The notes below the pieces were generated by a model. It did not search any database. It worked only from the letters and a program-made list of their open reading frames with translations, and had not been told where the DNA came from. A DNA stretch of 64,000 nucleotides from Propionivibrio dicarboxylicus (GTDB lineage: Bacteria; Pseudomonadota; Gammaproteobacteria; Burkholderiales; Rhodocyclaceae), in NCBI GenBank assembly GCA_945902805.1, contig CAMDMZ010000010.1, forward strand, positions 1 to 64,000. The letters are read 5' to 3'. The position numbers and the translations under genes were made by a program. Shown here in pieces: positions 17,431-64,000 of the stretch. The stretch's first letter is position 1; each line of letters begins with the position of its first letter.

Positions 17431-21636
<4,206 letters not shown>

Positions 21637-21640
<4 letters not shown>

Positions 21641-24600
21641 GCCGCTTCCTTATTGTCAGCGAGGCGCAGCGCCTCTTGCATATCCACTTCCACGATGCGC
21701 GACACACCTTGCTCCTGCATCGTGACACCAATCAATTGTTGCGCCATTTCCATGGCAATCTTGTTATGCGAAATGAAAACGAATTGCGTCTGCACCGACA
21801 TGCGCTTGACCATCTCGCAAAAGCGCACGGTGTTGGAATCGTCGAGCGGCGCATCGACCTCGTCAAGCATGCAGAACGGGGCCGGATTCAGGTTGAAAAT
21901 GGCGAACACCAAAGCAATCGCGGTGAGCGCCTTTTCCCCGCCCGACAACAGATGAATGGTCGAATTCTTCTTGCCCGGCGGTTGCGCCATGATCTGGATG
22001 CCAGCATCGAGAATCTCGTCACCGGTCAGAATCAGGCGCGCTTCGCCGCCACCGAAGAGTTGCGGGAACAGTGTGCCGAAGTGGCGATTCACCGTATCGT
22101 AGGTTTCCTGCAACTGGTCGCGCGTTTCGCGGTCGATGCGTCGAATCGCATCTTCCAGGGTGCCGATCGCCTGCGACAAGTCACCCGACTGCTCATCGAG
22201 ATAACCCTTGCGTTCGCGCGCCGTGGCCAGTTCGTCGAGCGCCGCCAGATTGACCGGCCCCAAGGCTTCGATCTCGTTACCGGTGCGGGTGATCTCGCTT
22301 TGCAGCACACTGTCGCGCACGCCCCTGGCGAGGTCCTCGGCAAACGGCACTTCGTCGGCTTCGCTGATGATATGCACTTCCAGCAAGCGCTCGCGGAACT
22401 GCTCTTCATTCAACTGCGACGCCTGCGCCTTGAGCCGTAGATCATTGATCTTCTCGCGCAGCGGATCAATGCCCTGTTCCAGCCGCAACCGCTGCTCGTC
22501 GAGCTCGCGCAGCTGGCCGGCGGCGGTTTCCAGCACATTGCGCCGTTCCGCCAGCGCCGACTCTTTGGCCGTCTTGGCATCAAGGGCCGAATGCAATTGT
22601 TCCTGCAGCACGGCATCGGAAATGCCGGCCACTTCGGTACGCGCTGATCCCAGATCGGTAGCTATACGCTGCAATTGGGTGGCGGCGGTCGTGGTCGCGC
22701 GTGCGTTGTCTTCCAGCTTGGACAAACATTCGCGTTCCGAGAATCCCGCTTCCTGCGCCTCGCGCGACAGCTGGTTTTCCAGCGCACGCACTTCACGCAA
22801 GGCCATGTCTTTCTGCCGTTGTGCATCCAGCGTCTGCTCAAGAACCAGCCGCACATCGCCCAGACGCTCGCTTTGGACGATCGCCTCTTCCTCGGCGCGT
22901 TCGCGGTTGGCGGTTTCATGATCGGCCTGGCGTACCAGTTCGGCCAGATCGGTATTGATCTGCGCCGAACGTTCTTCGAATCGTGCCTGGGCCTGAGTCA
23001 GTTTGAGGGCATCGACCTGGGCAGCATGAAAGGCCTGCTGTGCTTCCTGACTGGCACGGCGGGCGACGGTGAGTTGTGCCTGCTGTTCGGCCAGTGCGGT
23101 TTCGGCGTTCTGTTGCTGCTCGCGCGCCTGTTGCTCGGCGTCTTCGTGCGCCGCCAGCGTCAGCGCCAATTCGTCGATTTCCCTCTGGCGTTCGATGACG
23201 CCGTGAGTCTTGCTGTCCGGAACGTAGAGCGTGAGGCCAGCCGGGGTAAGGAGATGTCCGTTTCGGGAAACACGGCTGCCTTGATCCAGCGGCAAGGCGG
23301 CTGTCAGGTCCTCGGCCACGGTGACATCGTTCAACCACAGGTCGAGTATCGGTTTCCAGCGCGCATCGTCACACGAAACCTTGGCCCGCAAGCTGTCGCC
23401 AGCAAGGTTTGACGGCGGCGTGTCGGCACCTGCCAGCGCCAGCGTCAGAATCGCGGGCGGCGGTTCCTGCAATGCGCCACGCAGCGTATCGGCGTCCGTG
23501 GCGAGGGCCGAGAAACGCTCGCGCAACACGGCTTCGACGGCCGTTTCCCAGCCAGCTTCAACCCTGATGCTTTGCCACAGCGGCTTGGCCTCAGCCAGGC
23601 CATGGCGCCTGAGCCAGTCGCCGATTTCACCGCTTTGCGCCACCTTGGCCTGCAGTTGTTCAAGTGCTTGGTGCCGGGCGCGGGTTTCGGTGTAACGCCG
23701 GTGCGCGGCCTGCAAGGTCTCACGCGCCGCACGCAAGCGAGCTTCGGCTTCGGGAACCGCTGACTGCAAGGCGGCCAACCGCTCCTGCGCCACCGCCAGG
23801 GTTTCTTCACAGCGCGCCTCGGTTTCTTGCGCTGCCGCGAGCACCGCCGGGTCCGGCGCGCCAAGCGCCTGGCGGTCCGTTTCAAGACGTGCCTTGCGTT
23901 GATTGAGGCTGTCCAGGCTACGCTGGGCGTGACCCTTGTCGGCATCGGCCAAGCGCAACGCCTGTTCGGCTTCGTTCAGTCGCCGGCGCGCATCGGCAAC
24001 GGCGCTGCCAGCGGCCTGCACGGCGTCTTCGGCATCAGGCAAACGCGCAGCCACTTCCTCGTGCCGCGCCGACGCGGTCATGGAGCGATTGCGCGAGGTA
24101 TCGAGCAAGGCGGTCCAGCGTTCCTCGTCCTGCGCCAGCGCGCTCCGCTGGGCCGTCCAATGGGTTTCTTCGACAGCGAGTTGGGTCAGGCGCGTTTCCA
24201 GCCGATTGCGCGCATCGGCGAGATGGCGAATCTCGGATTCGAGACGACTGACTTCGGTATTCGCCGAATACATTTCCGACTGCGCCGCATGCAAAGTGTC
24301 CGACGCTGTGAAATGCGCCTCTCGCGCATGCTCGACGCGGGCTTCGGTTTCACGCAACTGCGCGGTCTCCGCCTCGACACGGTTGATCGCTTCCTCAACC
24401 TGGCGCGCCAGCCGGTCGGCGTCGGCGTGGGCATCGTTGCGCTTCTTGAGCCAGAGCAGGGTCTGCGCCCGACTCAGCTTGGCATGCAGTTCGCGATAGT
24501 TGCGCGCCACTTCGGCCTGGCCTTCGAGCCGGCCTACCTGCGCTTCCAGTTCATTGCGAATATCGTCGACGCGGGCGATGTTTTCGCGGGCATCTTCGAG

Positions 24601-25670: not shown

Positions 25671-26864
25671 ATGAACCGCGACCTCTCTCTCTTGCAGCCC
25701 TACCCGTTCGAAAAGCTGCGCCAACTATTCAGCGCCGTCTCGCCAGCACCGACTTTTCGCGAAATCAAGCTCTCAATCGGCGAACCCCAGCACGCCACGC
25801 CGCCCTTCATTCAGAAGGCGCTGGCCGACAATCTGGCTGGACTCGCCAACTACCCGACCACGCAAGGCAGCGACGCCCTGCGCCAAGCCATCGCCACCTG
25901 GGCGACCCGGCGCTACGCCATTCCAGCGCTGGATTTTGCGACCCAGGTGCTGCCGGTCAACGGTTCGCGCGAAGCCTTGTTCTCGTTCGCCCAGACCGTC
26001 ATTGACCGCACCCGAGCCAACGCCAAGGTCGTCTGTCCCAATCCCTTTTATCAAATCTACGAAGGCGCCGCCTTTCTCGCCGGTGCCGAGCCGGTCTTCC
26101 TCAATAATCTGCCCGAACACGATTTCGAAATGGAATGGGCCACGCTGCCCGAATCGGTCTGGCGCGACGTGCAACTGGTCTACGTCTGCTCGCCGGGCAA
26201 CCCGACGGGCAAGGTGCTGGGGCTTGAATCGTGGAAAACCCTGTTCGAGCTCTCCGACCGTCACGGCTTCGTTATCGCCTCGGACGAGTGCTACTCCGAA
26301 ATCTACTTCGATGAAGCGCATCCACCTCTGGGCGGTCTGACGGCGGCGAAACTACTCGGACGCGATGACTATCGCAACCTGGTCATGTTCTCCAGCCTGT
26401 CCAAGCGCTCGAACGTACCGGGCATGCGTTCCGGTTTTGTCGCCGGAGATGCCCGGCTGATCAAACAGTTCCTGCTTTATCGCACCTATCATGGCAGCGC
26501 GATGTGCCCGTCGGTCCAAGCGGCCAGCGTCGCCGCCTGGCAAGACGAAAGCCATGTGCGCGACAATCGTCGCATGTATGTCGAAAAGTTTCACCATGTC
26601 ACGCCGGTCATCGCCCGCCACCTCGATACCCGGATTCCTGACGCCGGTTTTTATCTGTGGGCAAAAACACCGATTCCAGACACCGAGTTTGCCGCGCGTT
26701 TGTTGGCCGAAAAAAACGTCATCGTCCTGCCCGGCAGCTTTCTGGCCCGTGAAGCCAACGGCGTCAATCCGGGCAGCAGCTTCATCCGCGTTGCCCTGGT
26801 CGCCAATCACGACGAATGCCGCGAGGCCGCCACCCGTATTGCCGACTTCTGCCTGTCCCTTTAA
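25671..26864 (+). CDS. dapC: Succinyldiaminopimelate aminotransferase (DapC-type)
   Basis: LQPYPFEKLRQLF, LSIGEPQHATP, CSPGNPTGKV, SSLSKRSNVPGMRSGF; next to dapD. Confidence 0.9.
   Translation: MNRDLSLLQPYPFEKLRQLFSAVSPAPTFREIKLSIGEPQHATPPFIQKALADNLAGLANYPTTQGSDALRQAIATWATRRYAIPALDFATQVLPVNGSREALFSFAQTVIDRTRANAKVVCPNPFYQIYEGAAFLAGAEPVFLNNLPEHDFEMEWATLPESVWRDVQLVYVCSPGNPTGKVLGLESWKTLFELSDRHGFVIASDECYSEIYFDEAHPPLGGLTAAKLLGRDDYRNLVMFSSLSKRSNVPGMRSGFVAGDARLIKQFLLYRTYHGSAMCPSVQAASVAAWQDESHVRDNRRMYVEKFHHVTPVIARHLDTRIPDAGFYLWAKTPIPDTEFAARLLAEKNVIVLPGSFLAREANGVNPGSSFIRVALVANHDECREAATRIADFCLSL
25732..25758 (-). repeat. 26-bp dispersed repeat, copy 6
   Basis: gcgccgtctcgccagcaccgacttttc inside dapC, read as AVSPAPTF. 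Confidence 0.9.
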
Positions 26865-31793: not shown

Positions 31794-31936
31794 GAACGTG
31801 TTTTGAAAGTTACTGCGCGGCCGAATAGCGGCGTTGCGCGGTGCTCGGAATCCTCATGTACTCAAGTACATTCCGGTTCCTGTGCTCCGTGCGCCTTGCT
31901 CTTCGGCCTGCTCGCTACACTTTCAAAACACGTTCT
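31793..31936. repeat. 144-bp imperfect palindromic element with 18-bp perfect terminal inverted repeats (MITE/REP-like)
   Basis: agaacgtgttttgaaagt ... actttcaaaacacgttct; centre tgtact-ca-agtaca. Confidence 0.75.
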
Positions 31937-32009: not shown

Positions 32010-32038
32010 AAAAAAGTCGGTGCTGGCGAGACGGCGAA
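32010..32038 (+). repeat. 26-bp dispersed repeat, copy 7 (intergenic)
   Basis: aaaaaagtcggtgctggcgagacggcgaa. Confidence 0.9.
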
Positions 32039-39554: not shown

Positions 39555-42500
39555 CTATTCCAACACACTCAAGCGCCCGTAAGCAAGGTAAAACACCGCG
39601 AGCCGCTGCGGCAAACCCTCGCCGGCCAAAAGCGCGCCGTATTCCTCCAATTGTTCACGATAGCGCTCGGCGTGGATGGCGAGTTGCGGCTCGATTTCCG
39701 TGTCAGCAACAACGTTGGCCGCAATCCGCGCCGTCTTGTAGTCGACAATCCAGCGCACACCATCCTCGACGAAACAGCGATCAATGACGCGGGTTTGCGC
39801 CGTCCCGCCAGAGCCGACTTTTGACAAGACCAGTTCCGCCGCCATGTCGTCGCGCTGCCGCACCACCCAGCGCCCGAGCTCGCTTTCCAGGGTCGTGACC
39901 AGCATTTCCGCAGTCCGCGCCGCCCCGCTCTGCGCCTGAGCCGGCGCCCAGCCCCGGCTTGCCAGCCATTGCACGAAGGCCGGCAGCAAGGAATTCGCCC
40001 GCGCCGGTGACCAGCTCTCTGGCGCCGCAACGATCTGTTCGAGGCAGGCATGGGTCAAGGTTCCCACCGCTGCCGCCAGTGGATCCGCCGTGTCATCGTT
40101 GGGCGGCACTACGGGCTCGGACATGACTGGCGCGGCCCAGGCTGGCGGCACCGTGGGCGCCGCCTGACGCAGCAACTGCGGGACGAACAGCGCCAGATCT
40201 TCGACGTCGGAAAAAGTCGGTGTGACCGAAGGGAATCCCCTTTTCGGGACTGGCGGGACGGCGGCGGCAGCCAGAAACTTGGTTTCCAGCGCTGGCCATA
40301 AACGGCCCAAGGCCGACGCAGAGCGCGGTGACGTGATTTCCCCATCGTCTTTGCGCCACGCCACGCCGACCAAATGCAAACGTCGCACCGCGCGCGTCGC
40401 CGCGACATACAGCACGCGCGCCTCTTCGTTGCTGCTGCGCTCGCGCTCCATGCGCTGCAGGAAATCGTAGACCGTCGGCACCACCGATTTGCCCCGATGC
40501 GGATTGACCGGCGCCGCCACCAGCCGTTCGCCATCCGCCAGCGCAAAAGTGTCCCACGCCAGCAACGGCGTATCGCGGCCAGACGGTTCGCGGTGCAGGC
40601 CGGGCAAAATGACTGTATCGAATTCGAGCCCCTTCGACTTATGCACTGTCATCAGTTGCAAGCGGCCATCGGCCTGCGCATCGGCCGCCGCAAACAGGCG
40701 CCCCATGTCGTCGTCGAGGCTATCCACCGTAAAGCGAGCGGCGGCATCGAGCACATCCAGCCGATTGAAAAACGCACTGGCGTCGACGCTGCCGGCGGCA
40801 TCGGTACAGTGCGGCCCGCCGAGCTTTTTCCAGACATCCTCAACCCAGCGCCGCCGGGTCTGGCGCCCCTGCCCGGCCAGCGCCTCGGCCAGCACAGTTC
40901 GAACATGCGCCAGACGACTTTGACCATCGGTCGACAGCCGCGCCACGCGGGCCTCGTCATTCATCAACGACCACACGGTAGCCGCATGATCGTCGCCGGC
41001 CAGCGCATGCAGATCGGCCAGCGTCAAGCCGCACCACGGCGCGCGCAACACCGCCAGCCAATGCAGACGATCAGCCCGATGATGCAGCGCACGCGTCAGT
41101 GAAATCAGATCCTGCACCACCTGCCGCCCGGCCAGCGGTTCGATCTCGACCGCCGAAAAGCGCCACGCCGGCGCCTCGCGACGAATCGCCGCCACCAGTG
41201 CTGACAAGTGTCCGCGCGCGCGCACCAGCACGGCAATCTCGCGTTGCGGATCGGCACGCCATTCGGCGCCGATGATGTCGATCAGGGTGCGAGCTTCCAG
41301 AGCGTCCTTGCCTTCCCCTGCCTCATCAGCCAGCACCGGATGAATGCTGACGCCGGCATCGGCCAGCGGCTCGCGAGTGGCAACGAAGGGTCGGTAGCGA
41401 ATCTCGCCGCGCAGCGGTTCGTCGGTCGCCGGAAAGACGGCGAGGAAATGCGCGTTGATCCAATCCACGACCTCCGGATGCGAACGATTGTTGCGCGACA
41501 AGCGCAGCTGTTCCAGACGGAGCGCACCGATGCCCGACTCGGCAACGCGCAAAAACAAGCCGACGTCGGCCTTGCGAAAGCGATAGATCGACTGCATCGG
41601 ATCGCCCACGGCGAACAAAGTACGCCCATCGCCCGGCTGCCAGCCAGCGGTCAGCCGCGCCAACAGCTCGATCTGCAAGGGGCTGGTGTCCTGAAATTCA
41701 TCCACCAGCAGATGCCGAATGCGGTAATCGAGCCGCAACGCCAATTCCGATGGCGCCGACTCGTCGCCCAGGGCGGTAATGGCGCGCGCCGCCAGTTCGC
41801 CGAAATCCACCTCGCCGCGCTCGCGAAAGACCAACCAGAGTTCCGCCGCCGCGAGTTGCAACAACTGCACCAAAGCACGCACCACCGCATCGTCGCCCTG
41901 CGCCGGCGCCGGCAATTCGCGCAGCCGGCGCAGCCCAGCCACAGCGCTGTCATCAAGACTGGCGAGCAGTTCCAGCATTGCCGCCTTGGCGGCTTTGTCA
42001 GCCGGCGGAAAGCCGTTCTTGACCGTCACCTGTTTGCGCCGTTCGCCTTCCTTGGTCAGCAACAAATCAGCCAGCGCACGCCAGCGCGGCAAATCGGCGG
42101 GATCTTCGCCGAGTGCTTCGGTCCAGTCGCTGAGCAGGCTGCCGCCCAGATTGTCCGCCGCGTAACGTGCCAGCGGCATCGCCCGCTCCTGCACGCCAAA
42201 GCCGAGCGAATCGACGATACCAGCCAGGTCTTCGCTGACCAGCGCCGCCAGCGCCGACCCCAGCACCGATCCCATTGCCAACTCGGGATCATCGCAAGCG
42301 GCGTGCATTTGCCACAGCGAACGCCATTGCTCGCGTCGCGCAAGCATCTGTGCCAACAGCGTCGCCAAGCGTCCGCTGTCGTTGTCGAGATGGGCCAGCG
42401 CGATAGCCACGGCATCGCCCATTTCACCATCACTGTCGAGATGATCGAGCGCGCGCCGCGCCGCCTCTTCGTAATGCCGCTGCACATCCTCGGCCACTGC

Positions 42501-42926
42501 CGGCTGGGCGCCAAAGCGCGAGAGGTAGGGCATCTGCCGCGCCAGGCTGGCGCACAGCGCATCGATCGTGGTCAGACGCAAACGGCCCGGCTGGGTCTCG
42601 ATCTGCCAATCGAGTTCCTTTGCTCTGGCCAGCGCCGCAGTCGCCAGGCCAAAGGTTACGCGCTTGTGTTCCGCCGCCGGCAGCGCGCCAGAGCGCGCCA
42701 TCGCCAGGCTCTCGGCGATACGTTCGCGCATCTCGCCAGCGGCCTTGTTGGTGAAGGTAATGGCGATGATTTCTTCGGGCTCATCCACCGTTGCCAACAG
42801 GCGTAAATATCGCTGCGTCAGCAGTTCGGTCTTGCCGGCGCCGGCGGGGGCTTCGACGATGAACGACTCAAGCTCGAGCGCGTGCCGGCGATGCTCGGCA
42901 TCTTGCTGGAGCAGGCGATCCATCAT
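39555..42926 (-). CDS. addA: AddA-like UvrD/RecB-family helicase-nuclease
   Basis: FIVEAPAGAGKTELLTQRYL, ITFTNKAAGEMRERI, HLLVDEFQDTSPLQ, LMTVHKSKGLEFDTVILPG, WIVDYKTAR. Confidence 0.88.
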   Translation of the reverse strand: MMDRLLQQDAEHRRHALELESFIVEAPAGAGKTELLTQRYLRLLATVDEPEEIIAITFTNKAAGEMRERIAESLAMARSGALPAAEHKRVTFGLATAALARAKELDWQIETQPGRLRLTTIDALCASLARQMPYLSRFGAQPAVAEDVQRHYEEAARRALDHLDSDGEMGDAVAIALAHLDNDSGRLATLLAQMLARREQWRSLWQMHAACDDPELAMGSVLGSALAALVSEDLAGIVDSLGFGVQERAMPLARYAADNLGGSLLSDWTEALGEDPADLPRWRALADLLLTKEGERRKQVTVKNGFPPADKAAKAAMLELLASLDDSAVAGLRRLRELPAPAQGDDAVVRALVQLLQLAAAELWLVFRERGEVDFGELAARAITALGDESAPSELALRLDYRIRHLLVDEFQDTSPLQIELLARLTAGWQPGDGRTLFAVGDPMQSIYRFRKADVGLFLRVAESGIGALRLEQLRLSRNNRSHPEVVDWINAHFLAVFPATDEPLRGEIRYRPFVATREPLADAGVSIHPVLADEAGEGKDALEARTLIDIIGAEWRADPQREIAVLVRARGHLSALVAAIRREAPAWRFSAVEIEPLAGRQVVQDLISLTRALHHRADRLHWLAVLRAPWCGLTLADLHALAGDDHAATVWSLMNDEARVARLSTDGQSRLAHVRTVLAEALAGQGRQTRRRWVEDVWKKLGGPHCTDAAGSVDASAFFNRLDVLDAAARFTVDSLDDDMGRLFAAADAQADGRLQLMTVHKSKGLEFDTVILPGLHREPSGRDTPLLAWDTFALADGERLVAAPVNPHRGKSVVPTVYDFLQRMERERSSNEEARVLYVAATRAVRRLHLVGVAWRKDDGEITSPRSASALGRLWPALETKFLAAAAVPPVPKRGFPSVTPTFSDVEDLALFVPQLLRQAAPTVPPAWAAPVMSEPVVPPNDDTADPLAAAVGTLTHACLEQIVAAPESWSPARANSLLPAFVQWLASRGWAPAQAQSGAARTAEMLVTTLESELGRWVVRQRDDMAAELVLSKVGSGGTAQTRVIDRCFVEDGVRWIVDYKTARIAANVVADTEIEPQLAIHAERYREQLEEYGALLAGEGLPQRLAVFYLAYGRLSVLE
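39797..39823 (-). repeat. 26-bp dispersed repeat, copy 8
   Basis: tgcgccgtcccgccagagccgactttt inside addA, read as KVGSGGTA. Confidence 0.88.
40211..40264 (+). repeat. 26-bp dispersed repeat, copy 9, split by a 27-bp insert
   Basis: aaaaagtcggtg | tgaccgaagggaatccccttttcggga | ctggcgggacggcg. Confidence 0.88.
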
Positions 42927-45691
42927 CGCTCCTCCCACTGTGTGCGTCGCTCGGCCACCCGCAGCAGCGGCTTGACTTCGCAGTACTGGATGTCTTTTTC
43001 ATCGGCGAAAACCACCGCCGCGCAACCGTCGCGGACCTCGCGCGCCAGTTCGATGATGCGTTCCGCCCACAATTCGCGCAGCGCCGACCAATCGGGAAAT
43101 TCGTCCTCGGCATAACGTTTGCGCTGGTTCTCGAGCGTCTTCACGCCGGGCAGCAGGCCGTCACTTTCGGCAACGCCGAAAAACGCCGGTTCATCCTTCG
43201 TCACCCGCGCCAGGACGACGGCGGCGACCGCCTGATCGGGAAACGCCAGCGCGGCGTAGATCGGCAATTGTGGCTCGCTGGGGCGGGGATCAGCCCAGCT
43301 ATCGGCCGAGACCGAACGCCCGCTCTTGTAGTCGATCACCACCAGGCGACCGTCATTGAGTTCGTCGATGCGATCAACCACCACCCGCACCGACAGGCCT
43401 TCAATGTCGAGCGTGTATTTTTGCTCGCAGGCGATGACGCGAAAATCGGCGCGCGCACTTTCCACTTCCAGCCAGGTCGCCAACAGAGCACGGAGTCGTT
43501 CGCCTTCCAGCGCGGCCAGACGCGGCGACAGGGGTTCAATGGCGTGTTGATCGAATTCGGTCAGCGCCGTTGCAACGGCGGCGGCAATTGCCGCCTCACG
43601 TGCCAGCGCGTCGAGGCCAAGCAACCAGGCCAGATCGTGATCGCGCCAAAAAGCCTCCAGCGCGCCATGCAACAAGCCACCGCGCGCACGCGCATCGAGG
43701 CCAAAAGTCGGCGCTGGCAGGACGGCGGCACCCAGCCGATATTGGTAAAAACCCCAGGCCGGACACACCGCTTGCGCCTGCAACAGCGCCGTGCCACCGC
43801 GAAGGTGCTCGTCGGCACCAAGCGCTGGTGCGCGCGAATCATCGAGGCGTTCGAGGGTTTCGGATGGTTCGCTGCGTCCCCCATTGATCTGCCCGTTCGG
43901 CCTGATGGTGAGCACGGTCGAACCATCGAAGGCTGCGCTAGGCTTCGACAAGCTCAGCCCGAACGGGTCTTTTGCGTGCGCTGAAGCCAACGCTGCCAAC
44001 AACGGGCTCGGACGCAAAGTACGGTCGCCCTCGCTGCCTGCCCAGGAGAAGACCACCTCGTCCGCGCTCTGGCACCACAGCGTTTGCAAGGTACGCGCCT
44101 GTTCCGCCAGACTATCGACACGCGCCGCCGGGATACCCGCGCGACGTTGCAACTCGGCCGGCAACAGTGGATTCGGACGCGGTGCGGGCGGCCACGCGCC
44201 CTCGTTCATGCCCAGCAGCCAGAGTCCGTCAACCGGCCCGGCCAAGGCGTCGGTCAGCGCACACAGTTCGACACGGGGGGCGCTACGTCGCGGCACGACC
44301 AAGGACAGATCACGCGCCATTTGCTGCGCCAGGCGCAGTGCTGCTCCGGCATCGATGCGCCCGACTACCGCATCCAGCGTCGTCAGACCGGCCAGAAGTT
44401 CAATCAACTGGTCACGCGCGGCTCGCTCCCGCGCCAGCAGCGGACGTTGCCCCGGCCAGCCCAGGGCATCCAGCAGCGCAACAAAGCGACGTCCCCAGGC
44501 GCCCGGTAGTTGTCGTCCAGGCGCAGCGCGCGGCGCCTCAGAAAGAATATCAAGATGAATCGCTAGCTGCGGCACAGCGCACTCCACCGCCAGTCGCTGC
44601 ACGGTGCGCCGGAAGCGTTCCAGCGAGGCTTCCGGCGGCAGATGCTCGCGCAAGGCCGCCTCAAGCCGAGCACGGCCGTCGGCCTCGTCGATATCGGTCG
44701 ACCAGCCGGGCGCACACAGCAGTGCGCCGAAATCTGCCTGTGCCACTCGCTGCGGGTGCGCGAAAAATCCCAGCAGTTGCAAGGCCACCATCACCACCGG
44801 CTCATCCACCAGGGGCGTGCCCCCAACGGCGGCGAAGGCAGGTTCCAGCCCGGCCCAAGAGGCGCCGATGGCATCCGGATTGAGGCTCGCTGCCAGCGCC
44901 AATTCGAGCGAACGGCGACGCGCCGGCCAGTCAGCCACGGCGATGCGCAGCCGCGCTTGCGAGTTCTCCGCCAGCCGCTGGCTTGCCCACGCCGCCGCCG
45001 CGCGACATTCGGCGTCGACATCAGTAGCGCCGTGCACGGTGACCAGCGCCGCCTCGTCATTGCCGACTTTTACCTCGAATACCTCCACTCCACGTGCTTC
45101 CAGGGCCGCCAGCAACCGTAACAGCATGGGATCGGGAGCAACAAGACCAAAAATTCCGATCTGCGCCGGCAAACCGCCCATGCCGCGCGTGATGCAGTCG
45201 ATGCGCCAGGCCATGGCTGCCATCGCAGTGCGCCAAGCGTTCGTTTTGCACGCCGTCGCTACCCGTTCGCGCCAGCGCGAGAAGGCCTGAAACTCGTCGG
45301 TTTGCAGCGCCTCCGGAACATCGAGACGCCAAGCCAGGCGCAGGTTTTCAGCTTCCATCGCGGCCAGCGCCATGCCGGCCCGATCAAACAATTCGCCACC
45401 CGCGATCTCGTCATCCGCAGCGACGGCCTGCTCCCACAGGCAGCGTTCTTGCGGTCGGGTGAGGAAGGTGCCGGCCGCCGCCTGCGGCGGAATCTCGCCG
45501 CGCAGCAGCGCCGACGATACGGCATGATCCAGCCATTGCGCCGGCGTCGCACAGCCCAAAGCCGCCCACACCGCCAGCCCGCGCGCGGCCTGAATCTCGC
45601 CGTGGGCACGGCGCAAGCCAGCCGCCAGACGCGCCGTCGGACACAGCACGAGGGTTGTCGCACCGCCGGGAAGCTCGGCGAGGGAGCGCAT
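42923..45691 (-). CDS. addB: AddB-like PD-(D/E)XK nuclease
   Basis: VDGLWLLGMNEGAWPPAPRPNPLLP; C-terminal VVVDRIDELNDGRLVVIDYKSG; overlaps addA. Confidence 0.82.
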   Translation of the reverse strand: MRSLAELPGGATTLVLCPTARLAAGLRRAHGEIQAARGLAVWAALGCATPAQWLDHAVSSALLRGEIPPQAAAGTFLTRPQERCLWEQAVAADDEIAGGELFDRAGMALAAMEAENLRLAWRLDVPEALQTDEFQAFSRWRERVATACKTNAWRTAMAAMAWRIDCITRGMGGLPAQIGIFGLVAPDPMLLRLLAALEARGVEVFEVKVGNDEAALVTVHGATDVDAECRAAAAWASQRLAENSQARLRIAVADWPARRRSLELALAASLNPDAIGASWAGLEPAFAAVGGTPLVDEPVVMVALQLLGFFAHPQRVAQADFGALLCAPGWSTDIDEADGRARLEAALREHLPPEASLERFRRTVQRLAVECAVPQLAIHLDILSEAPRAAPGRQLPGAWGRRFVALLDALGWPGQRPLLARERAARDQLIELLAGLTTLDAVVGRIDAGAALRLAQQMARDLSLVVPRRSAPRVELCALTDALAGPVDGLWLLGMNEGAWPPAPRPNPLLPAELQRRAGIPAARVDSLAEQARTLQTLWCQSADEVVFSWAGSEGDRTLRPSPLLAALASAHAKDPFGLSLSKPSAAFDGSTVLTIRPNGQINGGRSEPSETLERLDDSRAPALGADEHLRGGTALLQAQAVCPAWGFYQYRLGAAVLPAPTFGLDARARGGLLHGALEAFWRDHDLAWLLGLDALAREAAIAAAVATALTEFDQHAIEPLSPRLAALEGERLRALLATWLEVESARADFRVIACEQKYTLDIEGLSVRVVVDRIDELNDGRLVVIDYKSGRSVSADSWADPRPSEPQLPIYAALAFPDQAVAAVVLARVTKDEPAFFGVAESDGLLPGVKTLENQRKRYAEDEFPDWSALRELWAERIIELAREVRDGCAAVVFADEKDIQYCEVKPLLRVAERRTQWEER
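43701..43726 (+). repeat. 26-bp dispersed repeat, copy 10
   Basis: aaaagtcggcgctggcaggacggcgg inside addB, read as AVLPAPTF. Confidence 0.88.
43892..43967. repeat. Paired inverted repeats encoding the DPFGLSLSKP motif (REP/BIME-like)
   Basis: cccgttcggcctgatggtgagcacggtcgaac ... ggcttcgacaagctcagcccgaacggg inside addB. Confidence 0.8.
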
Positions 45692-45835: not shown

Positions 45836-47191
45836 TCATGGCGTGAGCCTGTCGACGGACAAATTCGTCTCTGCCGTCAGCAATTCGGGCGCCTGCGCAA
45901 CGCGCGGCAACGCATCGACCTGGTTCAGTTCGGCGATTTCCTTCTCCTCGCCGCCTGCGCCGGAAACCTTGAGCTCGCGGAACTTGCGCGCCGAGACCAG
46001 GACGCGGCTTTCCATCGACGCCACCGACTTGTTGTAAGCGCCCACGGCTTCGCCCAGATTCTTGCCGACGCGCGACCAATGTTCGGCAACCGTCCCGATC
46101 CGCTCGTAAAGCTCACGTCCGAGGGCGCTGATGCGCTCGGCGTTATCCGTCAGCGCCTGCTGGTTCCAGCCGTAAGCGACGGCTCGCAGCAAGGCGATCA
46201 GCGTGGTCGGCGTGGCCATGATCACGCGCTGGTCGACACCCTGCTCGATCAGGCTCGGGTCCGCTTCAAGCGCGGCGGCATAGAAGGTTTCGCCGGGCAG
46301 GAACAGGACAACGAAATCCGGCGAGGGCTGGAACTGTTCCCAATACGCCTTGCGCCCGAGCTTGACCAGATGGTCGCGCACCTGACGGGCGTGATCGGCC
46401 AGCTTGCGCTTCTTTTCCTGATCGTCGTCTGTCTCCAGCGCCTCCAGATAAGCGGCCAGCGGTGCCTTGGCGTCGACCACGATGTTCTTGCCGCCAGGCA
46501 ACTTGACGATCATGTCAGGCCGCAGGCGACCGTCTTCGGTGTTCGTGCTTTCCTGCTCGAAGAAATCGCAGTGATCGAGCATGCCGGCCATTTCGACCAC
46601 GCGCTTCAACTGCAGTTCGCCCCAGCGACCGCGCGTTTGCGGTGCGCGCAAGGCCTTGACCAGATTGCCGGTTTCCAGCCGCAACTGGCCCTGCCCTTCG
46701 GCCAGCGAACGTACTTGCTCGGTCAGTGTGGCGTAGGCATTTACCCGCGAGGCTTCGATACCCTGGATCTGCTGCTCGAACTTTTCCAGGCTGGCCTTGA
46801 CCGGCGCGATCATCTCGCCCACCGCCAGTTGACGCTTCTCCAGTTCGCCCTTGGCCGCCTGTTGCTGGGCGTCAAGCGTGGTACGCGCCAGTTCAAGAAA
46901 AGACTGATTGTTGCGCGCCAGAGCATCGGCCGAAAGGGCCTTGAAGGCATCGGAAAAGCTGACGCGGGCTTCTTCGAGCGCGGTCTGCCGCTCGGCGAAA
47001 CGCACGCGCTCGCCATCAAGCTCGGCTTCCAGGGCCGAGCGCCGTCCGACCAGCACCGACTTTTCTTCGCGCAGCTGGATCAATTCCGCAGTCGCTTCGC
47101 GCAGACGCGCACCCAGCAACCAGGCCGCGAAGCCGCCACCCAACAACAAACCCGCCACCAGCGCCAATGTCATTTCCACGTTATTCACCAC
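45836..47191 (-). CDS. rmuC: DNA recombination protein RmuC
   Basis: N-terminal TM, coiled coil, RGRWGELQLKRVVEMAGMLDHCDF, VVDAKAPLAAYLEA. Confidence 0.93.
   Translation of the reverse strand: MVNNVEMTLALVAGLLLGGGFAAWLLGARLREATAELIQLREEKSVLVGRRSALEAELDGERVRFAERQTALEEARVSFSDAFKALSADALARNNQSFLELARTTLDAQQQAAKGELEKRQLAVGEMIAPVKASLEKFEQQIQGIEASRVNAYATLTEQVRSLAEGQGQLRLETGNLVKALRAPQTRGRWGELQLKRVVEMAGMLDHCDFFEQESTNTEDGRLRPDMIVKLPGGKNIVVDAKAPLAAYLEALETDDDQEKKRKLADHARQVRDHLVKLGRKAYWEQFQPSPDFVVLFLPGETFYAAALEADPSLIEQGVDQRVIMATPTTLIALLRAVAYGWNQQALTDNAERISALGRELYERIGTVAEHWSRVGKNLGEAVGAYNKSVASMESRVLVSARKFRELKVSGAGGEEKEIAELNQVDALPRVAQAPELLTAETNLSVDRLTP
47039..47064 (-). repeat. 26-bp dispersed repeat, copy 11
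   Basis: gcgccgtccgaccagcaccgactttt inside rmuC, 2 mismatches to consensus, read as KSVLVGRR. Confidence 0.8.
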
Positions 47192-47919: not shown

Positions 47920-50793
47920 TCAGCTTGTTCCGGCCGACGATGCCAGCCACTTCAGCAGCGTCTCATACAGATATTGAGGCTTCACCGGCTTGCCGATGTG
48001 GTCGTTCATACCGGCGGCGAGGCAATCCACACGGTCCTGCTCATAGACGCTCGCCGTCATGGCCAGGATCGGGACATCGGCGCAACCGGGGAGCGTGCGA
48101 ATCACGCGTGCGGCCGAGGTGCCATCGAGTTTCGGAATATCCAGATCCATCAGGATCAAGGCATAGTGGTTCTGGCGCGCCATGGCGACCGCCTCTTCGC
48201 CATCCTCGGCCAGATCGACGACGAGGCCGGCCACTTCGAGCAGCATGCGCGACACTTCCTGATTCACCAGTTCATCTTCCGCCAGCAGAATGCGGGCGCC
48301 AGAGTATTCCTGTTTCAATTGCTCCTGCGGCTTCATCGGCGAAAAAGTCGGTGCTGGCGGGACGGCGCCCAGGCGCTCCGGCAAGCTATCCAGTTGCACC
48401 GTCAGGCGGAAAGTACTGCCGACTCCAATCACGCTACTGACTTCGATGTCGCCATCCATCATCTGCGCCAGGCGACGGCTGATCGCCAGCCCGAGTCCGG
48501 TGCCACCGTACCGGCGCGTCATCGATGCATCGCCTTGTTCAAAATACTTGAACAGACGTTTTTGCTCGTCCGCCGCGATCCCCACACCGCTGTCCTGCAC
48601 ATCGAACTGCAAGCGCGCGTTGCTTACATTTTTCTCGACCAGACGCACGCTCACCGCGATAGAACCGCGCTCGGTAAACTTGATCGCGTTGGCCGTGAGA
48701 TTGATCAGGATCTGCCCCAACCGCAAGGGATCGCCGACCAGCAGCAGGCGCGCCGCCTCAGGTGGCAAGTCGATCCGCAAAGACAGACCCTTATCCGTCG
48801 CTGACTGGCTAACCAGATCATTCAGATTGTCCAGCACCTTGCCCAGGCTGAACTCCGTCCGATCGAGCGGCAAGCGCTCGGCCTCGATTTTCGAAATATC
48901 GAGAATGTCGGTGATGATGCCCAGCAAGTGTTGCGAAGCCTTGTCGACCTTGTTCAACTGATTGATCTGCGCCGGATCGGTGGCCTTGCGCAGCGCCAGC
49001 GCCGTCATGCCCATGATGGCGTTCATCGGCGTCCGCAGTTCATGGCTCATGTTGGTAAGGAAACTGGTCTTGGCCCGGTTCGCATCTTCGGCTGCTTCCT
49101 TGGCAATCGAGAGCGCTACGGTGCGATCCGCCACCAGTTTTTCCAGATGATCACGGTAATTGCTCAACTCGGCTTCGGCTCGCTTGCGCTCGGTCACATC
49201 CTCGCCCGCCGCCAGCGTACCGGCCACCAGACCGTTCGCATCCAGGATCAAGCTATGGTGCCAGGCCATCAGGCGTTGCTGTCCCGCACGATTGACCACC
49301 GGCGATTCGATGTATTCGATCTGCGCCGCAACCCCGGTAACGCTGGCGCGGAAGGCCGGGTATTCGTGATCCATGCCTTGAGGTTGCGGCAAACAACGCT
49401 GGAACCAGTTGCAGCCGATTAGGTCCTTCGCTGCATAGCCCAGCAACTCGCAACCCTTGCGGTTGATGAGGGTGACGTAGCCATTGCGGTCCAGGGCCAC
49501 GATGACAGTTTCGATGGTGTCGAGATAGCGCTGGCTCCGATCACGTTCCAGACGCAGTTGGATTTCGGCTTCCTTGCGCTCGGTAATGTCGCGATTGACC
49601 CCGCGCCGGCCACGATATTCCCCGGCACTGCCGTTCACTTCCTGGCATTGATGTTCGAGCCAGCGGATGGCGCCCGTATCGGTGATGATGCGGAATTCAA
49701 AACAATAGTGCCCCTGTGCATCCGTTCGCGAACGGATGCAATTCATGTGCTGATCCCATCCGGCCAGATCGTCCAGATGCATGATGGACCGCAGCAAATC
49801 GGGATCGGCAAGAAAGTCTTCAGGCCGATAACCGCTGATTTTTTCGCAACCCGCCGAGACGTATCGATACTGGCCATCCGGCCCCAGCCAGTATTGCCAT
49901 TCCGGCGCGTAGTCCGCCAGGATGCGATAACGCTCTTCGCTTTCCAGCAAAGCCTTCTGCGCCGCCTTGCGCTCGCTGATATCCCGAGTGACGGTGATAA
50001 CCACCTTGCTGCCGTTGACGACAGCGCCGGAGGCACTCACCTCGACATCAAAAATGTGGCCATCACGCCGACGGTGCTTGGTTTCAAATGTCGTGTTGAT
50101 TGTCGACAGATCGCGAAAATTCTCACGCACATCCGCCTCACTGAGGTTTGCATCCCAGTCCCAGGTGCGCAAACCCAGCAACTCGCCCTGGCCGTAGCCC
50201 AGCATCTCGGCGAAGCGCCGGTTGGCTTCGATGATCCAGTGGTCCTGGTTGATGATGGCAATGCCGTCGCGCGACGCATCCATCAACTGCTGGCGGCGTA
50301 CCGAAGATTCGCGCAAGGCCGACTCTGCGGCGCGAGTCGCCGTGATGTCATGCGCAACACCCAGCACACCGAGCAAGCTGCCGTTCGCTGCGTAAATCGG
50401 CGTCTTGGTGACCTCGAACAGGCCACCATCGCTGCCATCGGCAAAATCCATCCATTCCTCGGTGCGGCGTACCTTGCCGGTCGTCATGACGCCAATGTCG
50501 TCGGCGAGGAAATTGTCTGCCCGTTCATGCGAGGCAAAGTCGTAATCGGTCTTGCCCACGAGTTCGCCTTCCGGCGCACCGCACAGGCGCTCAAACCGTG
50601 CGTTGCAGGCGAGAAAAATCCCTTTCGGGTCTTTCAGCCAGACCAAGCCCGGCATCGACCGGATAAGCGTTTTGTACAGAGCATGCTCATGTGCCAAACC
50701 CAGCGCCAAATCCCGCGCCGCATCGGCGCTGCCTGACGCGACATTTGCTTCTGGGGACAACACTTGGGTCGAAGAATGAATAAATTGATTCAT
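47920..50793 (-). CDS. Multi-PAS hybrid histidine kinase with C-terminal receiver
   Basis: PAS/PAC repeats, HELRTPMNAIMGMT, HATPase, receiver ALILMDLDIPKLDG. Confidence 0.93.
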   Translation of the reverse strand: MNQFIHSSTQVLSPEANVASGSADAARDLALGLAHEHALYKTLIRSMPGLVWLKDPKGIFLACNARFERLCGAPEGELVGKTDYDFASHERADNFLADDIGVMTTGKVRRTEEWMDFADGSDGGLFEVTKTPIYAANGSLLGVLGVAHDITATRAAESALRESSVRRQQLMDASRDGIAIINQDHWIIEANRRFAEMLGYGQGELLGLRTWDWDANLSEADVRENFRDLSTINTTFETKHRRRDGHIFDVEVSASGAVVNGSKVVITVTRDISERKAAQKALLESEERYRILADYAPEWQYWLGPDGQYRYVSAGCEKISGYRPEDFLADPDLLRSIMHLDDLAGWDQHMNCIRSRTDAQGHYCFEFRIITDTGAIRWLEHQCQEVNGSAGEYRGRRGVNRDITERKEAEIQLRLERDRSQRYLDTIETVIVALDRNGYVTLINRKGCELLGYAAKDLIGCNWFQRCLPQPQGMDHEYPAFRASVTGVAAQIEYIESPVVNRAGQQRLMAWHHSLILDANGLVAGTLAAGEDVTERKRAEAELSNYRDHLEKLVADRTVALSIAKEAAEDANRAKTSFLTNMSHELRTPMNAIMGMTALALRKATDPAQINQLNKVDKASQHLLGIITDILDISKIEAERLPLDRTEFSLGKVLDNLNDLVSQSATDKGLSLRIDLPPEAARLLLVGDPLRLGQILINLTANAIKFTERGSIAVSVRLVEKNVSNARLQFDVQDSGVGIAADEQKRLFKYFEQGDASMTRRYGGTGLGLAISRRLAQMMDGDIEVSSVIGVGSTFRLTVQLDSLPERLGAVPPAPTFSPMKPQEQLKQEYSGARILLAEDELVNQEVSRMLLEVAGLVVDLAEDGEEAVAMARQNHYALILMDLDIPKLDGTSAARVIRTLPGCADVPILAMTASVYEQDRVDCLAAGMNDHIGKPVKPQYLYETLLKWLASSAGTS
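48342..48368 (+). repeat. 26-bp dispersed repeat, copy 12
   Basis: aaaaagtcggtgctggcgggacggcgc in the kinase-receiver linker, read as AVPPAPTF. Confidence 0.9.
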
Positions 50794-56006: not shown

Positions 56007-57644
56007 ATGCGCTGGAACACGTTTCGCCCTTTCCCCGCCAACCGGGTCTTCCTGCGCGTATTTGGGGTTTTCGGCAGCCTGTTGCTGGCGATGGCCGTGT
56101 TGTATGGCGCACTCATGGTTCCGCTACAACGCGATTCATTACTCAAAGTGCTGTATTCGCAGGCCAGCACGGTCTCGCGCTCGATCATCCAGGCCAGTTC
56201 GGACGCCATGCTCACCGACGATTTCGGCTTTGTGGTCGAGCACAACCTGCAGGTGCTGCAAAACAACAAAAGTATTCAGTCGGTGCTGATTGTGCCCCGG
56301 CGCGGCACCGCCATCAGCATTACCACCACCGGTTGGGAAATGCTCGAAAGCGACAAGGCACCGATCCAGCCCGGCGACTACGAGAACGAATCGTTTGGCA
56401 TTCGACAGATTCCGGGCACCGCATCGACCTATCGTTACATCACGCCGATCCGCTTTAGCGGCGTCAGTTGGGGCGTGATGCGCATTGATTTCGATACCAG
56501 CGACTACCTGGCGAACATCAACGAGATGATTCGCCAGATCGTCCTGATTTCGCTGCTATCGATCCTGATCATCTTGCCCGTCGGCTACTTTTTCGCCCTC
56601 TGGCTGACGCGACCGATCGCCATCATCAGCAACGCTGCCTCGCGCGTAGCCAATGGCGATCTCGATGCCCATGTCGATGTGCCGCGCGCCGACGAAATCG
56701 GCGACCTGTCACGCAGTTTTAACCAGATGGTCGACGCGCTCGCCGAGAACCGGCAACGGTTGGAGAACGTCAATCTCGACCTGGAAATCAAGGTTGCCGA
56801 ACGGACTCAGGCGCTCGACGAGCTGAACCGGACGCTCGACCAGCGGGTGCGCGACGAAATCGCCAAGCGCAAGGAGCAGGAGCAATTGCTGATCCACCAA
56901 TCACGCCTGGCGGCGATGGGTGAAATGATCGGCGCGATTGCCCACCAGTGGCGTCAACCGCTGAATGCGTTGAGTCTAGTGCTGCAAAACATTGCCTTGC
57001 AGTTCGAGATGGGACGACTCGACCAGGAATCGATGAAACGGCTGAAGGACAAAGGCGAGGTCATGGTGATGCGGATGTCGACCACCATCGATGACTTCCG
57101 CAACTTCTTTAAACCCAACAAGACGGCCAAGCTATTTGACCTGGATACCGCCTTGCGCAACGCGGCCGATCTACTCGATGGCTTGCTGCGCAATCACAAC
57201 ATCAGCGTCTCGATCCAGTCTGAACCGGGCATCCAGATCCTCGGCTTCGGCAACGAATTCTCGCAGGTGGTGCTGAATATTCTCGGCAATGCCAAGGACG
57301 CCCTGATTGCCCATCATCCCGCCCAGCCATCAATCCATATCAAGGTGGCACAAACAGCGCAACACATCGAAATCCGCTTCGAGGACAACGGTGGTGGCAT
57401 GGATGAAACCACGCTGAACAAGATTTTCGAGCCCTACTTCACCACCAAAGAGGAAGGCAAAGGTACCGGCATCGGTCTGTATATGTCGAAAATGATCATC
57501 CAGAACAGCATGCACGGCCAGTTACGCGCCGAAAACATCCCCGGCGGTGCCTGTTTTCGTGTCACCTTGCCGATACATGCTGCTGAAGAAGCCACGGCAG
57601 AAACCGATCGCACAAGCGCCGTCCCGCCAGCACCGACTTTTTAG
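56007..57644 (+). CDS. Membrane HAMP sensor histidine kinase
   Basis: HAMP region; GAIAHQWRQPLNALSLVLQN; GTGIGLYMSKMI; ends SAVPPAPTF from the repeat. Confidence 0.92.
   Translation: MRWNTFRPFPANRVFLRVFGVFGSLLLAMAVLYGALMVPLQRDSLLKVLYSQASTVSRSIIQASSDAMLTDDFGFVVEHNLQVLQNNKSIQSVLIVPRRGTAISITTTGWEMLESDKAPIQPGDYENESFGIRQIPGTASTYRYITPIRFSGVSWGVMRIDFDTSDYLANINEMIRQIVLISLLSILIILPVGYFFALWLTRPIAIISNAASRVANGDLDAHVDVPRADEIGDLSRSFNQMVDALAENRQRLENVNLDLEIKVAERTQALDELNRTLDQRVRDEIAKRKEQEQLLIHQSRLAAMGEMIGAIAHQWRQPLNALSLVLQNIALQFEMGRLDQESMKRLKDKGEVMVMRMSTTIDDFRNFFKPNKTAKLFDLDTALRNAADLLDGLLRNHNISVSIQSEPGIQILGFGNEFSQVVLNILGNAKDALIAHHPAQPSIHIKVAQTAQHIEIRFEDNGGGMDETTLNKIFEPYFTTKEEGKGTGIGLYMSKMIIQNSMHGQLRAENIPGGACFRVTLPIHAAEEATAETDRTSAVPPAPTF
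57616..57642 (-). repeat. 26-bp dispersed repeat, copy 13
   Basis: gcgccgtcccgccagcaccgacttttt, encodes the kinase C-terminus up to the stop. Confidence 0.9.
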
Positions 57645-62225: not shown

Positions 62226-64000
62226 TCAACGTCTATTTTGAGCCGAATCGCGTGGCAACGTAAAGCGGAAACAGGCGCCTTTGCCGAGCTCGCTTTCCAC
62301 CCAGAGCTTGCCGCCAAAGTACTCGATGATCTGGCGACTGATCGGCAGGCCCAGCCCGGTCCCCTGCGGTTTGTCGGTCAGAGCACCGGCATCCCCGGTG
62401 CCCTGACGGAACTTCTCGAAAATCAGCTCGCGATCTTCAGCCCGGATACCGGGTCCATTGTCACAGACGCTGACGCTGACCTCATCCGCCGTCTCGCCAG
62501 CGCCGACTTTTACGTGCCCGCTGCCACTGGCGACGAATTTCACGGAATTGGACAGCAGATTGATCATGACTTGCGTCAGGCGATCGCGGTCGGCCAGCAC
62601 GATGGCGCCGGGCTCAGGAAGATCAAGCTGGAGAGTGATCTTCTTCTCTTTGGCCAGTGAACTGATGGAATCGACCGCTTCGCGGATCACCTCGGAAAGA
62701 TTGACCTCGGCACTGGTCCATTCGGCACGGCCGGATTCGAGTTTGGCGAGATCGAGTATCTGGTTGATCAGCCGCGAAAGGCGCTCGGTCTCGCTGACGA
62801 TGATGCCAAGGAAGCGGGTCCGTTCCACCAGATCAATCTTGGGATCTTCATGCAGCATTTCGGAAAAAGCCCGGATCGAGGTCAGGGGCGTCCGCAGCTC
62901 ATGGGTCACTGTCGAAATGAAGTCATCCTTCAAGCTGTCCAGTTCACGCAGACGCTCATTTGCGGCACGCAATTCCGCCGTTGCCTGGGTCAGCTCTTGC
63001 GACTTAATTTCCAACTCATGACTGTAGGCCCGCACTTGCGAAGCCTCGTCGAGAATGTTCATCACCTCGTCGAGCCCCAGCGGCTCTTCCTGCACCACCG
63101 AGGCGACCATAGCGCGCGCCGAGGCCGAGCCGATCGCACCGGCGAGCAAGGTTTCGGCGAAGTGCACCAACTCGGCATCCGATTTAACCCCATGTAAGGC
63201 CGCACTGCTGGTGAAACCACGGCTTCGGGCATGGCGATCAAATGCTTCCTGTGCCCGTTCTGGTCCGATAAAGCGCGCAGCCAGCGGCAACAAGTCATCC
63301 AGCTCGGCGCCGCCACGCCAATTGGGGGCCGCCGCGCCCGACTCTTCAACGAACAATTTAGCCTGCCGCGCCTCGCGTGCATCGGGAATTCGCATCAGCG
63401 AAACCCCGACGTAGCTGCCCAGATTGAACACCATGCTCCACACCAGGCAATGCGTAATTTCACTAAGCCCGGTAAGTCCGAACAATTGCTGCGGCCGAAG
63501 TAGCTCGATGCCCCATGGACCGTGCTGAAGAAAATCGGCCGGAAGCCAACCGGACTTGGCGAACGAAGGCAAGAGAAGTGTGTAGGTCCAGATAAAAAAT
63601 CCGGCCCCGAGTGCCGCCAGCGCACCCGACTGAGTGCCTCCCTTCCAGTACATCCCCCCCAGCACTACAGGTGCAAACTGTGCCATGGCAGCAAAGGAAA
63701 TCAGGCCAATACTGACCAACGCGTAGGCTTCGCCGGCAATACGGAAATAGAGATAACCGAGCGCCAGAATGATGGCAATCGCCCAGCGACGAATCCCCAG
63801 CAGCAAGCCCGTCAGGTCTTCACGTTGCTGCAAGCCAAGCGCCCGCCAGCGCAGAAGCACCGGCATCACCAGATCGTTGCAGACCATGGTGGACAAGGCG
63901 ATGGTCTCGACAATGACCATGCCGGTGGCGGCCGAAAGCCCGCCGACGAAAACCAGCAGGGTCAAACTCTGCTGCTGGAAGGCCATGGGCAGGGTCAAGA
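62226..64000 (-). CDS. Sodium:solute symporter-histidine kinase fusion (CrbS-like), N-terminus beyond window
   Basis: Polytopic SSS-like N-terminal region; HELRTPLTSIRAFSEML; GTGLGLPISRQI. Confidence 0.88.
   Translation of the reverse strand, partial: LTLPMAFQQQSLTLLVFVGGLSAATGMVIVETIALSTMVCNDLVMPVLLRWRALGLQQREDLTGLLLGIRRWAIAIILALGYLYFRIAGEAYALVSIGLISFAAMAQFAPVVLGGMYWKGGTQSGALAALGAGFFIWTYTLLLPSFAKSGWLPADFLQHGPWGIELLRPQQLFGLTGLSEITHCLVWSMVFNLGSYVGVSLMRIPDAREARQAKLFVEESGAAAPNWRGGAELDDLLPLAARFIGPERAQEAFDRHARSRGFTSSAALHGVKSDAELVHFAETLLAGAIGSASARAMVASVVQEEPLGLDEVMNILDEASQVRAYSHELEIKSQELTQATAELRAANERLRELDSLKDDFISTVTHELRTPLTSIRAFSEMLHEDPKIDLVERTRFLGIIVSETERLSRLINQILDLAKLESGRAEWTSAEVNLSEVIREAVDSISSLAKEKKITLQLDLPEPGAIVLADRDRLTQVMINLLSNSVKFVASGSGHVKVGAGETADEVSVSVCDNGPGIRAEDRELIFEKFRQGTGDAGALTDKPQGTGLGLPISRQIIEYFGGKLWVESELGKGACFRFTLPRDSAQNRR
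62486..62512 (-). repeat. 26-bp dispersed repeat, copy 14
   Basis: ccgccgtctcgccagcgccgactttta inside the kinase HATPase domain, read as KVGAGETA. Confidence 0.88.

Follow-up and report, generated by a model that had tools for sequence, protein, structure and literature searches.

The addA gene of an uncultured Rhodocyclaceae-like bacterium (draft genome of 4.86 Mb in 129 contigs; here G000) contains a copy of a 26-bp repeat that is split by 27 further base pairs, and the locus raises the question of how one very small sequence came to lie inside another within an open reading frame. We analyzed bases 1-64000 of contig 10, the whole 64-kb stretch being referred to here as the window. The composite, read directly from the sequence, occupies positions 40211-40263 of the plus strand as AAAAAGTCGGTG + TGACCGAAGGGAATCCCCTTTTCGGGA + CTGGCGGGACGGCG: the left part of the repeat lies at 40211-40222, the 27-bp unit at 40223-40249 and the right part at 40250-40263. 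An earlier note on this DNA had given the same left half, insert and right half, with letters that are as stated; its start coordinate stands, while its end, 40264, is one base past the last position of the composite. Excision of the 27 bp restores a perfect match (26/26) to the repeat consensus. The host gene, which encodes a UvrD-like helicase with a PD-(D/E)XK nuclease, is on the minus strand (39555-42938), and its frame is preserved through the insert (VPPVPKRGFPSVTPTF), which adds 9 codons at approximately residues 897-906, in the linker between the UvrD_C domain (ending at 856) and the PDDEXK_1 domain (starting at 954). A second repeat copy in addA, of the short form, is located at 39798-39823 on the minus strand, encodes KVGSGGTA and is common to the orthologues.

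With up to 3 mismatches allowed, the 26-bp repeat is found 12 times in the window, where shuffled sequences give an expectation of 0.00. Besides the second copy in addA, short copies are found on the plus strand at 1-26, 9038-9063, 19099-19124 (perfect), 32011-32036, 43702-43727 and 48342-48367 (perfect), and on the minus strand at 22541-22566, 25733-25758, 47040-47065, 57617-57642 (perfect) and 62487-62512. In the whole 4.86-Mb genome, the 25-mer of the repeat occurs 734 times, compared with 0 in the reversed control. The genome search for the 27 bp proposed in the earlier note, run with a 22-bp core of the unit, returned 20 copies in the 4.86 Mb (≤3 mismatches) and 0 in the control, with a single occurrence in the window. 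A unique or chance sequence is ruled out by these genomic copies of repeat and core against none in the controls, and the nested 27-bp insert in the 26-bp repeat is real.

The repeat is also present in relatives, all of the genomes compared being drafts: G041 (the genome of isolate GS19 14) has 401 copies and G001 has 210, and nine further genomes that contributed AddA orthologues have between 48 and 222. One of these nine, G043, yields counts identical to those of G001 and could be the same genome. The 26-bp form was found in 12 of 40 relatives from the family and order and in 10/10 genomes behind AddA orthologues, and it is almost missing from another 368 genomes belonging to the class. One genome related at class level only, G280, has two perfect copies (C2:238552 and C15:11870), which reflect either transfer or contamination. 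The exact 25-mer was also detected in 34 stretches of a viral collection (L303-L336), two of which hold it twice; these may be mis-binned host stretches or repeat-carrying phages, and a gap scan of them returned chance spacings only. No exact match to the 27-bp unit was found in viral contigs and no match to the 53-mer in a plasmid search, and a viral or plasmid origin of the unit was rejected on these results. An Rfam scan identified no known RNA family at the repeats; a match to sX9, a Xanthomonas sRNA, is located at 31856-31930 (+) of the window, about 80 bp before the repeat copy at 32011, and scores 44.7 against a cut-off of 44 bits. A search of the open-access literature returned unrelated papers and no published description of the 26-bp sequence.

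Nineteen of the 20 copies of the 27-bp unit lie inside a 26-bp repeat; the exception (L147) is a relative of the unit just past the stop of a gene, outside any repeat. The earlier note had asked whether other repeat copies carry the same insert at the same position. By best-scoring excision they do in 15 of the 19 nested copies, where the unit (TGACCG...CGGGA) sits at repeat offset 12, a set that includes L027 and L028, for which other offsets score equally, and L146, whose unit is 26 bp long, whereas three copies show registers shifted by -3, -2 and +1 (offset 9 in L015, 10 in L018 and 13 in L026) and one (L025) is too strongly decayed for its unit to be placed. Once the unit is excised, 16/19 copies match the repeat consensus at 24-26 positions, and the decayed L025, L027 and L028 match it at 21. 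Target duplications are absent from the nested copies and the registers are confined to a 5-bp central zone. The differing registers show that the 27-bp unit entered repeats on more than one occasion. In an alignment of 15 long copies, pi is lower in the inner 27 bp (0.087) than in the outer 26 bp (0.147); one inner sequence occurs within differing outer variants, and outer variants are also found in short copies.

Orthologues indicate the direction of the change at the two long-copy sites where such a comparison was possible, addA and an HpnC-like gene. In the named collection, the AddA closest to that of G000 comes from 'Rhodocyclaceae bacterium isolate GS19 14' (76% identity), and the best addA orthologue (L059, in G041) has a bare 26-bp copy at the insert site, GCCGTCCCACCAGAGCCGACTTTT, and lacks the 27 bp. 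The nine inserted residues were found in none of the AddA orthologues examined, and an ancestral AddA segment was rejected given these orthologues without them. The reading of the earlier note, in which a second, smaller element sits within the first and keeps the frame, is borne out by the 20 genomic copies and by these orthologues, and the outcome that it named as contrary, a unique 27-bp sequence with its residues conserved in AddA homologues free of the repeat, did not occur. The same linker of AddA holds different small repeats in other Rhodocyclales (L062, L066, L069 and L072), such as GGTAGGGCCGGCTTCAGCCGGCC units (L066) and units of the AAATAGGGGACAGACCCC type (L062), which points to a linker that tolerates such landings.

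The second site, at contig 3, 122320, lies in a gene that we take to be HpnC-like. G000 carries ILRRTASPEKGIPFGHTDF there, that is, the repeat plus the 27 bp, and the two closest orthologues, in G001 and G041, carry RVASADF, coded by the repeat without the 27 bp, while distant orthologues have native residues at a length equal to the bare-repeat form. The nine extra residues are present in 0/30 aligned orthologous sequences, and the alignment has no other gaps at the repeat. In these alignments, the gene displays a full three-state series, from native sequence to the 26-bp repeat to the repeat with the 27 bp. As the orthologues are either bare or native, the 27 bp are an in-frame gain into a pre-existing repeat rather than an ancestral segment that was lost.

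The opposite order, with an ancestral 53-bp composite and the 26-bp form as its deletion product, is extremely improbable. In its favor, one could see in the long form a more complete element with a weak hairpin inside it; however, a 29-mer of the insert has 0 matches in the 40 relatives and the nine further genomes behind AddA orthologues (49 in total), whereas the 26-bp form occurs there as counted above, the HpnC-like series polarizes the event as a gain, and registers vary among copies. The absence from 49 genomes together with the HpnC-like series contradicts a deletion from a long ancestor. It could also be supposed that the composite formed once and then spread as a unit onto native sequence, and the single register of 15/19 copies would agree with this. 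We consider such a history improbable, since the 26-bp repeat preceded the 27 bp at both testable sites, diversity is higher in the outer parts than in the inner one, with variants among the outer parts that are known from short copies, and three copies are in other registers.

The bare repeat often lies within genes. By greedy ORF calling on 1.18 Mb, 109/170 repeat copies lie inside ORFs, and the reading frames that they use are skewed to KVGAGGTA and AVPPAPTF, as expected if outcomes are sorted by selection. The window copy at 43702-43727 lies in addB, where the repeat is read antisense and codes AVLPAPTF within RLGAAVLPAPTFGLD; six outgroup genomes have different residues at identical length, for example RLGARALETPVDGLD. 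Likewise, the repeat-coded KKVGAGRTAV stands in place of ERLGVSKSAV in DUF167 and ALKVGAGETAGELHD in place of RLSIAPSETAGELHD in Fmt, with no change in length, and overwriting with zero net length was also seen in a SRAP-like protein, a prenyl-synthase-like protein and others (DUF167, Fmt, SRAP-like and related names being our presumptive assignments). Length is unchanged in 8/12 comparable protein pairs and small gaps occur in 4/12, counts that come from genes, where frameshifting insertions are hidden by selection. At the DNA level, the flanks agree with those of orthologues until the sequence changes abruptly for 25 bp. These alignments show for several genes that the 26-bp repeat replaces native sequence of equal length and is not inserted, a behavior absent from the earlier note. 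Native sites match the repeat at 9.1/23 positions, compared with 6.3/23 at neighboring offsets, in a sample of few and non-independent pairs. The DUF167 sequence in G018 is 5 mismatches from the repeat, so this site could be partly old.

A lineage-wide motif in hundreds of copies, on both strands and often within genes without indels, could alternatively be a signal for uptake or recognition (of the DUS, USS or Chi kind) that was built by point mutation under selection, the 27-bp insert being incidental. In the fine-scale sample (1.24 of the 4.86 Mb of G000, with 0.7 Mb of G041, alongside whole-genome pattern searches), however, the mismatch histogram of repeat copies is 43/66/46/15/6 with almost nothing beyond. 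This sharp distribution suggests that copies arise whole and speaks against a stepwise build-up. A signal of this kind is quite improbable, given also its ~25 well-conserved positions, the orthologue flanks that match to the edge of the abrupt change, and the 19 nested inserts that it leaves unexplained.

Taken together, we propose a two-layer nest, in which an overwriting 26-bp repeat was followed by a 27-bp unit that arrived through single-strand annealing with the repeat arms, and we give this proposal an even chance of being right. In the first layer, the repeat, which is spread across the Rhodocyclaceae-like lineage, replaces native sequence of the same length, as seen in several genes; in the second, the 27-bp unit (ends TGA...GGGA, 9 codons) was inserted centrally, and repeatedly, into existing 26-bp copies in the lineage of G000. 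Both steps may use short single-stranded copies of the repeat that anneal to matching or part-matching DNA and are built in, as in recombineering with an oligonucleotide or in short-patch illegitimate recombination. On annealing, the 26-bp form would overwrite its target, and in the 53-bp form the 12- and 14-bp halves would serve as homology arms on existing 26-bp copies, adding only the middle. Off-register copies may represent imperfect annealings or separate entries, and selection would remove out-of-frame outcomes and retain those in tolerant linkers such as that of AddA. Homology arms alone are an insufficient explanation for L147, which lies outside any repeat, and a site-specific enzyme would fit the constant register as well.

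An enzyme of this sort is the core of the principal alternative, which treats the 27-bp unit as a tiny mobile element in its own right, resembling REPs, moved by an IS200/RAYT-kind tyrosine transposase or another enzyme and landing preferentially in the repeat center. The unit is well defined (TGA...GGGA), it occurs in four registers with no target duplication, and L147 follows GTCG, the left neighbor of the unit in L015 too. A Y1_Tnp (RAYT-like) gene is also present in the genome (L242, G000 contig 3, ~128974), with a full 26-bp repeat copy ~640 bp upstream and a partial one ~95 bp downstream. It is, however, the single such gene found, the 27-bp unit was not found flanking it, and 19/20 sites within one repeat would imply extreme target specificity. 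Structural properties of the unit also argue against an independent element, as it has neither a strong hairpin nor a GTAG tag. The earlier note had called the insert hairpin-like: the arms, CCGAAGGG and CCCC..TTCGG, can pair (-6.2 kcal/mol as DNA), yet the predicted hairpin is weak and its gain over shuffles modest (z -1.55). It is weaker still in the GGA subfamily; the 53-nt composite shows no advantage over shuffles (z -0.60), and the 26-bp form has no fold. We therefore regard an independent element as rather unlikely, with a real minority chance. A GGGGACAGACC stretch was noted upstream of the Y1_Tnp gene.

The repeat center accommodates other sequences as well. A 60-bp unit (TGATGAAGC...GTAGCGGA) occupies this central hole in four repeat copies of G000 (L238-L241) and in one of G041 (L182), and G041 has in addition three copies with a unit of a 21-bp type and one with a 24-bp unit related to the 27-bp one (L177, L199, L204 and L200). 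Several unit types, the 27 bp among them, use the same hole, a point absent from the earlier note, and the lengths of these units (21, 24, 27 and 60 bp) are all multiples of 3. A broader formulation of the two-layer proposal is that the 26-bp family spreads by length-neutral overwriting and serves as a landing pad that exchanges 21/24/27/60-bp in-frame units, outside transposition; we hold this to be possible, with the balance somewhat against it.

Very small repeats are common in bacteria, and the movement of units of ~25 bp is an old question. The polarized three-state series in one gene and the many orthologous sites make the spreading step directly testable. If overwriting is confirmed, selfish DNA could move through coding sequence at little cost, and such replacements would supply proteins with new linker peptides; if the landing-pad reading is true, length-neutral spread of selfish DNA would be distinct from transposition.

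Several known systems share part of this behavior. In short-patch double illegitimate recombination, short single-stranded fragments replace equal patches of the chromosome at microhomologies; the known cases are rare and involve arbitrary sequence, whereas here one sequence is found ~700 times. The DUS and USS of Neisseriaceae and Pasteurellaceae occur in hundreds of copies, on both strands and in genes, with length unchanged. The 26-bp repeat resembles them in all of these respects, and differs in its ~25 highly conserved positions and few intermediates. GTAG/CGTC-tagged REPs are short and of high copy number, some being coding or in DNA repair genes (recB) and some nested in repeats (PMC3733652), and those of the CGTC type carry CGTC at the terminus, next to a stem of 8-9 bp that closes a loop of 4-5 nt (PMC3733652). 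The minus strand of the 26-bp repeat contains CGTC, but an 8-9 bp stem beside it forms in neither the 26-mer nor the 53-mer, and the GTAG that marks the other class at the base of a hairpin occurs in neither the 26-bp nor the 27-bp unit. Moreover, most copies of the 26-bp repeat are in ORFs and not intergenic. Rickettsia palindromic elements are short in-frame repeats within open reading frames (PMC3733652). They are palindromic and add residues, whereas residues are replaced by the 26-bp repeat and added by the nested unit alone; that unit lengthens the protein in frame, with a hairpin that barely exceeds shuffles. The small dispersed repeats (SDRs) of cyanobacteria, reportedly described by Elhai and colleagues in 2008, are said to be ~21-27 nt long, of high copy number and apparently mobile, and to lie in genes and in repeats. 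The likeness to SDRs is one of size and behavior, comprising the unit size, the high copy number (734) and the presence or absence at orthologous sites (HpnC-like, DUF167 and AddB). The differences are the lineage and the sequence, together with the equal-length overwriting and the nested in-frame 27-bp unit documented here. In conclusion, these elements otherwise resemble known small dispersed repeats, and the overwriting is their novel part.
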